NCBI GenBank assembly: GCA_035498015.1
Contig: DATKAO010000110.1
Span: forward strand, 1 to 47,494
Direction: 5' to 3'
Source of the DNA: Myxococcota bacterium
GTDB taxonomy: Bacteria; Myxococcota_A; UBA9160; SZUA-336
Length of the DNA stretch: 47,494 nt
The position numbers were made by a program, and so were the translations under genes. Positions 8,229 to 11,779 of this stretch are shown here, piece by piece. The first letter of the stretch is position 1; each line of letters starts with the position of its first letter. The notes beneath the pieces were generated by a model. That model saw only the letters and a list, made by a program, of their open reading frames with translations. It had not been told where the DNA came from and did no database searches.

Positions 8229-8335
8229 GTCAGGGGCCCCGCTCACGGTGATGGTGGGCAGATCCGCTCCCCGGCTGCGCTCCCGAGCGCGGCCGGCGCG
8301 GGAGTCCTCATGAGTCGACCCCGGGGCTCGTTCTG

Positions 8336-8378
8336 TGCTACTAGACCGGCCGCCCAGACTGAGGGAGGGAGCTCTGCG
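8336..8378 (+). promoter_or_regulatory. Putative extended -10 and ribosome site of hppA
   Basis: TGCTACTAG (8336-8344) resembles an extended -10 (TG-n-TAnnnT-like), and GAGGGAGGGAG (8361-8371) is a strong Shine-Dalgarno about 7 nt before ATG 8379. The site decides the start: an in-frame ATG at 8310 exists but would add 23 residues before the hydrophobic leader and lies upstream of this promoter-like element. Confidence 0.4.
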
Positions 8379-10820
<2,442 letters not shown>

Positions 10821-10850
10821 GAGTAAGAGCATCGTTGCGCGCTGCGCTCC

Positions 10851-11169
10851 GCGCAATTCCCGTCGGTCGCTGCTTCGGGAGTACCCTGCAGACGCTCCCT
10901 CTGGGAATTGCGCCGGCCGCGCGCGCGAATCAGATCCTTCCGCTTCCCCAAAATTAAGAAACGCGTCGACGTTCGTTGCCTCGAAGACCATGCAGTCCGC
11001 GCCCGATGGCATTGCGAACGCGGACCGGATGGTGGAAGTGGCGAACGCGTCGACGCGACTTTCCTTTAGTTGGGGAACGACACTCCGTAGTTCGCGCGCC
11101 CGCGGGGGGGCAAACCCAGAGGGAGCGTCTGCAGGGTACTCCCGAAGCAGCGACCGGCGGGTTTCGCCC
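10851..11169. repeat. ~320-bp imperfect palindrome with perfect 42-bp inverted arms
   Basis: The arms at 10864-10905 and 11115-11156 are exact reverse complements over 42 bp (read base by base). The symmetry continues inward imperfectly: CCCCAAAATTAAG near 10946 mirrors CTTTCCTTTAGTTGGGG near 11059-11075, CGCGTCGACGTTCG mirrors CGAACGCGTCGACG, and GACCATGCAGTCCGCG mirrors CGCGGACCGGATGGT around a centre near 11010. Outside the arms similarity fades within about 10 bp. No transposase is present; the small ORFs inside read similar peptides in both directions simply because of the symmetry. It could be a MITE-like or REP-like mobile repeat, or act as a two-sided terminator between hppA and the redoxin gene. 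Confidence 0.85.
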
Positions 11170-11203
11170 CGCCGCGCGCCGCGCCGAGATGCTCCGGGTC
11201 CAC

Positions 11204-11779
11204 TTACTCCGGGCGGTATTTCACGGAGCAGCCGTAGGGCTGGGTCTCGGTGGGGTCGGGTGAGGCGCTCGCGAGCACTGCGTGCACGGCGGTGTCGACG
11301 TAGTTGGTCGGCTTCTCGGCGCGGCCGTACTGATCGTCGTCGATCGCGCCGCGGTAGCGCAGGACGCCCTGGGCGTCGATCACGAACATGTGCGGCGTGG
11401 TGCGAGCGCCGAACAGGTGGCCGAGCTTGCCGTCGGAGTCTTGCAGGGTGGCGTACGTGAAGCCCTGCTCCTTCTTCCAGGCCTTCGTGTCGTCGGGCGT
11501 GTTCGTGTAGGTCGAGTTCACGGCGAGCCAGACCACGTCCTTCGCACCCAGCGCGGCGGCGAGCTGCTTCATCGTGCCGGCCTGGTAGTGGCGTTCCACG
11601 AACGGGCACTCGGAGTTGGTCCACTCGAGCACGAGCGCGTGACCCGCGTACTGACTCAGCTTGTGCTCGACGCCGTTCTCGTCCTTCGCGCTCCAGTCGG
11701 GCACCTTGTCGCCGATCTTCGGGGTCGAGATCGCGCCCATGAGGGCGGCGGCCACGAGGGCCAGTGCGATGCGCTTCAT
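11204..11779 (-). CDS. Exported thioredoxin-fold redoxin (AhpC/TSA-like)
   Basis: A 191-residue protein with a signal peptide ([17 protein letters not shown]) and a thioredoxin fold: KIGDKVPDW start, HALVLEWTNSECPFVERHY at the active-site turn, then a cis-Pro-like TTPHMFVIDAQGVLRYRG. The active-site turn has one cysteine (ECPF) instead of CxxC, and a second cysteine lies near the C-terminus (GCSVKY), suggesting a peroxiredoxin-like or 1-Cys arrangement. Its ATG overlaps the TGA of the DsbD/ScsB-like gene upstream on the same strand, so it may be a periplasmic thiol partner of that reductase. That partnership is inferred from position only. Confidence 0.82.
   Translation of the reverse strand: MKRIALALVAAALMGAISTPKIGDKVPDWSAKDENGVEHKLSQYAGHALVLEWTNSECPFVERHYQAGTMKQLAAALGAKDVVWLAVNSTYTNTPDDTKAWKKEQGFTYATLQDSDGKLGHLFGARTTPHMFVIDAQGVLRYRGAIDDDQYGRAEKPTNYVDTAVHAVLASASPDPTETQPYGCSVKYRPE

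Follow-up and report, generated by a model that had tools for sequence, protein, structure and literature searches.

A large inverted repeat between convergent genes is one copy of a dispersed, stop-codon-adjacent hairpin family in an uncultured bacterium of the Myxococcota

The DNA analysed here, referred to as the window, is a stretch of 47,494 nucleotides from a Myxococcota bacterium (GenBank assembly GCA_035498015.1, contig DATKAO010000110.1). It carries the plus-strand gene hppA (8310–10820), encoding an H+-translocating pyrophosphatase (H_PPase; PF03030, E 1.5e-175) with its stop codon TAG at 10818–10820, and, convergent with it, a minus-strand gene of the redoxin/AhpC-TSA family (11204–11779; PF00578, E 8.9e-19) that ends in TAA (TTA on the plus strand) at 11204–11206. 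Relatives of HppA that are 66–76% identical occur across very different phyla, which makes this gene a poor lineage marker here. The 383-bp gap between the two stops (10820 to 11204) is filled by a repeat element of ~370 bp (10824–11199, boundaries from the alignment of copies), with the outer ends TAAGAGCATC...GATGCTC. Within it, inverted arms at 10859–10905 and 11115–11161 match over 47 nt with one mismatch, and contain the perfect 42-bp pair (10864–10905/11115–11156) that an earlier note had described between these convergent genes and that our recomputation reproduced. Symmetry beyond the 47-nt arms is weaker (71-nt arms at 86%). The same note had followed the symmetry inward to a centre near 11010; the centre does lie at 11010, but the element-wide symmetry is interrupted by stems whose sequence is not the same in the two arms (AATTCCC/GGGAATT in the left one, GAAACCC/GGGTTT in the right).

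A 35-nt core of the arms is found only in the two arms of the window and arose in none of 100 dinucleotide shuffles, in agreement with the earlier view that such long arms would hardly persist by chance, although what is kept is not a long palindrome but a hairpin apex that occurs twice. In a scan of 227 kb from the organism's own genome and 205 kb from a congener, no other inverted repeat came close to the window palindrome (score 44); the next best (score 21) is another member of the same repeat family. RNA folding of the palindrome region, proposed earlier as a check, yielded a strong fold (−250.9 kcal/mol, z = −13). A scan of this region for sigma-70 promoters found none, and no Rfam family scored above its gathering score, the best being a chance match to MIR839 at 16.6 bits against a cut-off of 200.

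The palindrome belongs to a dispersed, ~370-bp non-coding family, so far seen in one uncultured bacterium. Many further copies, 71–88% identical to the window element, are present in its own genome (4.5 Mb, 257 contigs), where R1, a covariance model built from the arm, detected 24 units at E < 1e-11 and one more cut by a contig end, giving 25 arm units. Including copies with a second arm type (C93, C55, C41 and C98), the family occupies about 18 places, a lower bound, with several copies at contig ends where the assembly stops. A local accident or assembly artefact, which the earlier note would have concluded from a lack of other copies together with degenerate arms in close relatives, is rejected, as copies are found within contigs, surrounded by unique sequence that differs from one to another. 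R1 had no matches when run on 90 further genomes from the class, congener included, and no comparable repeat family was present in the 205 kb of the congener that were scanned; exact cores were absent from viral contigs, an exact 22-mer had no occurrence in GTDB r220 contigs, and blastn against plasmids and phages gave no match. A phage or plasmid origin is rejected on the basis of these searches. The term "species-restricted" applies within the sets searched, which may lack entries that are very close to the source genome. Another large gap between convergent genes (C134:13068–13458) was considered and set aside as a tRNA region rather than a family member; it holds a tRNA-like gene and, on the opposite strand, a partial tRNA-like 3' end (43 bp, 98% identical to C30), and this pair (L199:13060–13465) is possibly an integration site.

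Intact copies share a common order: stop codon, GAGCATCTC, a hairpin unit of ~100 nt, an A-tract spacer, a central hairpin, a T-tract spacer and an inverted unit. In the window copy, the left unit (10824–10929, plus strand; R1, 121.5 bits, and local fold) reads forward from the hppA stop codon and the right unit (11091–11197, minus strand; R1, 92 bits) forward from the stop codon of the redoxin gene. Between them, the alignment and folds of the copies define a central imperfect hairpin (10960–11058; CGCGTCGACG ... CGTCGACGCG, with the conserved loop GTCCGCGCCCGATGGCATTGCGAACGCGGAC), bordered by an A-rich tract (10950–10961), which on the minus strand is the T-rich tail past the central stem, and by the corresponding T-rich tail of the plus strand (11058–11075). 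All units share a fold in which a GCGCGC stem at the base leads to a stem box that varies and, at the top, to the conserved apical module GGTCGCTGC-TTCGGGAGTACCCT-GCAGACGCTCC. The apical modules of the left unit (10864–10905, plus strand) and of the right unit (11115–11156, minus strand) coincide with the perfect arms, and the 42-bp match is thus the shared module of the family present twice, not one maintained long palindrome; in the window copy both arms carry the same apex, and its perfect match is for that reason the longest in the contigs scanned.

Stem boxes occur as TAAAACCC/GGGTTTT, AATACCC/GGGTATT, AATTCCC/GGGAATT, AGAAGCCC/GGGCTTC and GTTACCC/GGGTAAC, and apices as at least three types (GGGAGTACCC, GCGAGTACGC and GCTCGA...ACTCGC). 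A second type of unit, with the apical module GGGTCCCTTCTCGTCGAAGACTCCTGCGAAACCC, was observed in the right arm of L021 and in L025 (C41), L033/L143 (C55) and L035 (C98); its architecture is the same, and its stems vary between copies yet remain complementary. Two copies, L140:565–718 (C69) and L015:1473–1510 (C131), have lost one hairpin unit by internal deletion while keeping the outer end, and the deletion in C69 also removed part of the centre.

It is the local hairpin that is the conserved structure, because arms belonging to the same element resemble each other no more than arms paired at random (identity 0.75 vs 0.78, P 0.99); a long cruciform as the conserved structure is rejected for the same reason. 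Stem boxes pair better within their own arm (−19.0 kcal/mol) than when arms are swapped (−13.5 kcal/mol), a difference that 0 of 20000 permutations equalled, and the outer stem behaves likewise; these permutation tests ignore kinship between arms and overstate independence, yet at least five distinct box types each keep their own complement. Pairing of the stems is kept in copies that have diverged by 12–29%. In the central stem, no compensation was seen over and above the family consensus (P 0.45). Compensation in the arm stems shows that the hairpin is being kept, but not why, because template switching at quasipalindromes can produce it without selection on the RNA (PMC8794818).

All four combinations of the AATA and TAAAA boxes with apex types a and b occur among the copies, a reassortment indicative of recombination or conversion between them. 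To that extent the shuffled arm types fit the earlier suggestion of a recombination hot spot, while no inversion was shown. Identical arms within one copy occur in 0 of 11 cases (P about 0.1), too weak a deficit to claim avoidance. Shuffled modules, together with the known capacity of template switching to create and keep hairpins (PMC8794818), would also suit a purely mutational account, in which template switching and recombination between copies hold the arm stems complementary and the element has no function. We regard this as very improbable, as it leaves unexplained both the placement after stop codons on the two sides of the element and the T-tracts on both strands.

That placement is a consistent property of the family. 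Among 20 arms facing gene 3' ends, most have their GAGC end 0–9 nt from the stop codon, whether TAA, TAG or TGA. Where both neighbours of a copy are known (flanking genes having been checked by Pfam for most copies), there are seven pairs that are certainly convergent, the C55 copy in addition, five tandem arrangements and no divergent one. The convergent pairs are HppA/redoxin, histidine kinase/RpoZ, TPR/SnoaL, HtrA/enoyl-CoA hydratase, epimerase-like/MFS, a small ORF/MMPL and a pair of small proteins. Elsewhere in these genomes, convergent genes are separated by a median of 7–13 nt, as estimated with a simple GC-frame gene finder. In two tandem exceptions (L014:715–760 and L015:1740–1765) the extra distance between stop and element consists of GAGCCG-type hexanucleotide repeats in variable number. 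In C55 (L143:1780–2100) both flanking frames seem to enter the element and stop inside it, the left ORF running through a type-2 hairpin and the right gene having as its stop the TAA of the GGGCTAA box; no C55 orthologues were found in relatives.

The excess of convergent placements would accord with a topological role, in which the element serves as a site for gyrase or a nucleoid protein where the positive supercoils of converging transcription meet, as reported for E. coli BIMEs, which are known binding sites (PMC2817692). We consider such a role improbable, given the five tandem placements and a pattern of conservation that, apical modules excepted, tracks the pairing of hairpins and not a fixed duplex site.

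Comparison with the congener supplied two orthologous sites at which the element is absent: at histidine kinase/rpoZ the stop codons are 10 bp apart, and at epimerase/MFS they are 4 bp apart. The orthologous kinases end at the same residue and the RpoZ proteins within three residues of one another. At the window locus there is no clean empty site, the congener hppA being followed by a co-directional gene, which we take by eye to be an ABC-transporter permease; nor is the htrA site a clean test, another gene (by eye, presumably an acyl-CoA dehydrogenase) intervening there. These different neighbours of hppA and htrA are possible, but not certain, signs of rearrangement at the elements.

Empty sites, dispersed copies, internally deleted members (C69:565–718 and C131) and the many ends of the form TA|AGAGC...GCTCT|TA, which in L002 would suit a TA target, are what would be expected of a MITE-like non-autonomous element that is neutral to its host, whose transposase has been lost or goes unrecognised and whose position at intergenic 3' ends reflects the insertions that survived. 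The earlier note had raised a MITE-like non-autonomous element; that the repeat is dispersed and non-coding is confirmed, and it is missing from the two orthologous sites. The note's proposed check for target-site duplications revealed none that is consistent across copies: inverted ends are present, but TA flanks both sides in some copies (L002) and is lacking in others, and many ends follow TGA or TAG, which is not a fixed target. The transposase search covered the Y1/RAYT and IS630-type families; PF01797 (Y1/RAYT) had 0 matches in the 95%-complete genome, with positive controls, and IS630-type DDE_3 likewise had no match in the organism's own genome, and mobilisation by either is rejected. 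The persistence of stem pairing in copies 12–29% diverged also argues against a host-neutral element, and we judge the MITE-like reading rather unlikely, if still credible. In several copies, both ends coincide exactly with two convergent stop codons, the native spacer is gone and all three stops are used. A mobile hairpin element that targets stop codons, or is rebuilt at them, by an undescribed mechanism might account for this, but we think it quite unlikely.

On balance, we lean towards a REP/REPIN/BIME-like repeat that would act in both directions as a 3'-end and terminator element. Protection of 3' ends combined with bidirectional termination is the simplest account because a forward hairpin lies directly after each stop codon. 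A flanking gene would be read out past its stop codon straight into its forward ~100-nt hairpin and on to the central stem and T-tract, the element itself presumably being transcribed; the proximal hairpin may protect the 3' end of the mRNA, and transcription would be terminated or insulated in both directions between abutting genes. Over 22 strand-ends, T makes up on average 8.5 of the 18 positions after the central stem (47%) on both strands, against a background of 14.4%, the T-richness that a two-way intrinsic terminator would be predicted to show. A strict scan for intrinsic terminators, however, found none in the window copy, and the T-run usually begins a few nucleotides beyond the GC stem instead of directly at it. 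The structured RNA or terminator suggested in the earlier note is supported by stem compensation in the arms and by T-tracts on both strands. Placement after stop codons could reflect only where insertions are tolerated.

Several classes of intergenic repeat invite comparison. MITEs such as ERIC and Correia elements are dispersed, non-coding, imperfectly palindromic and intergenic, as is the present family, which differs in being a three-hairpin composite with exchangeable arm types for which no target-site duplication or cognate transposase was found. The rhizobial intergenic mosaic elements (RIME) and pneumococcal BOX are, like it, modular mosaic intergenic repeats with palindromes; the sizes and order of their modules are different. 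Integron attC sites were considered in view of the position of the units after stops, and were set aside, the copies being convergent and no R'/R'' box being evident by eye.

The closest resemblance is to REP dimers, which consist of 20–40 bp units arranged as inverted heterodimers with structured spacers, lie in convergent copies <20 bp from both ORFs, can supply stop codons from their ends and, in the GTAG families, are associated with transposase genes (PMC3733652). With the REP, REPIN and BIME repeats described in PMC3733652, PMC2817692 and PMC8049555, the likeness extends to intergenic inverted hairpin pairs with a structured spacer and partners that differ in stem or loop, to convergent copies within ~20 bp of both stops, to a stop codon sometimes supplied by the copy and to restriction to a lineage; CGTC families, too, lack an associated transposase. 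Nine copies with two aligned arms form inverted dimers whose arms differ in stem type and enclose a conserved central hairpin, and the location of the family (seven to eight convergent, five tandem, none divergent, with stops adjacent) is also REP-like. In contrast to REP, the unit is ~100 nt with nested stems; its foot is GAGC(ATCTC)T, with no conserved GTAG or CGTC in 23 aligned arms; there are ~18 copies rather than tens to thousands; the spacer forms a hairpin of its own, ~100 nt long and accompanied by T-tracts; and the RAYT gene of the GTAG families was not found. By strict definitions the family is not REP, yet it behaves like one.

From an evolutionary standpoint, the family combines a REP-dimer-like lifestyle, with heterodimeric inverted hairpins at gene 3' ends, with units several-fold larger and no RAYT found, and the comparison suggests that placement after stop codons and a hairpin-spacer-hairpin build have arisen more than once. 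If the element is a two-way terminator, it would provide a natural two-way insulator where genes abut, with shuffled modules that would make it possible to test the hairpins one at a time.
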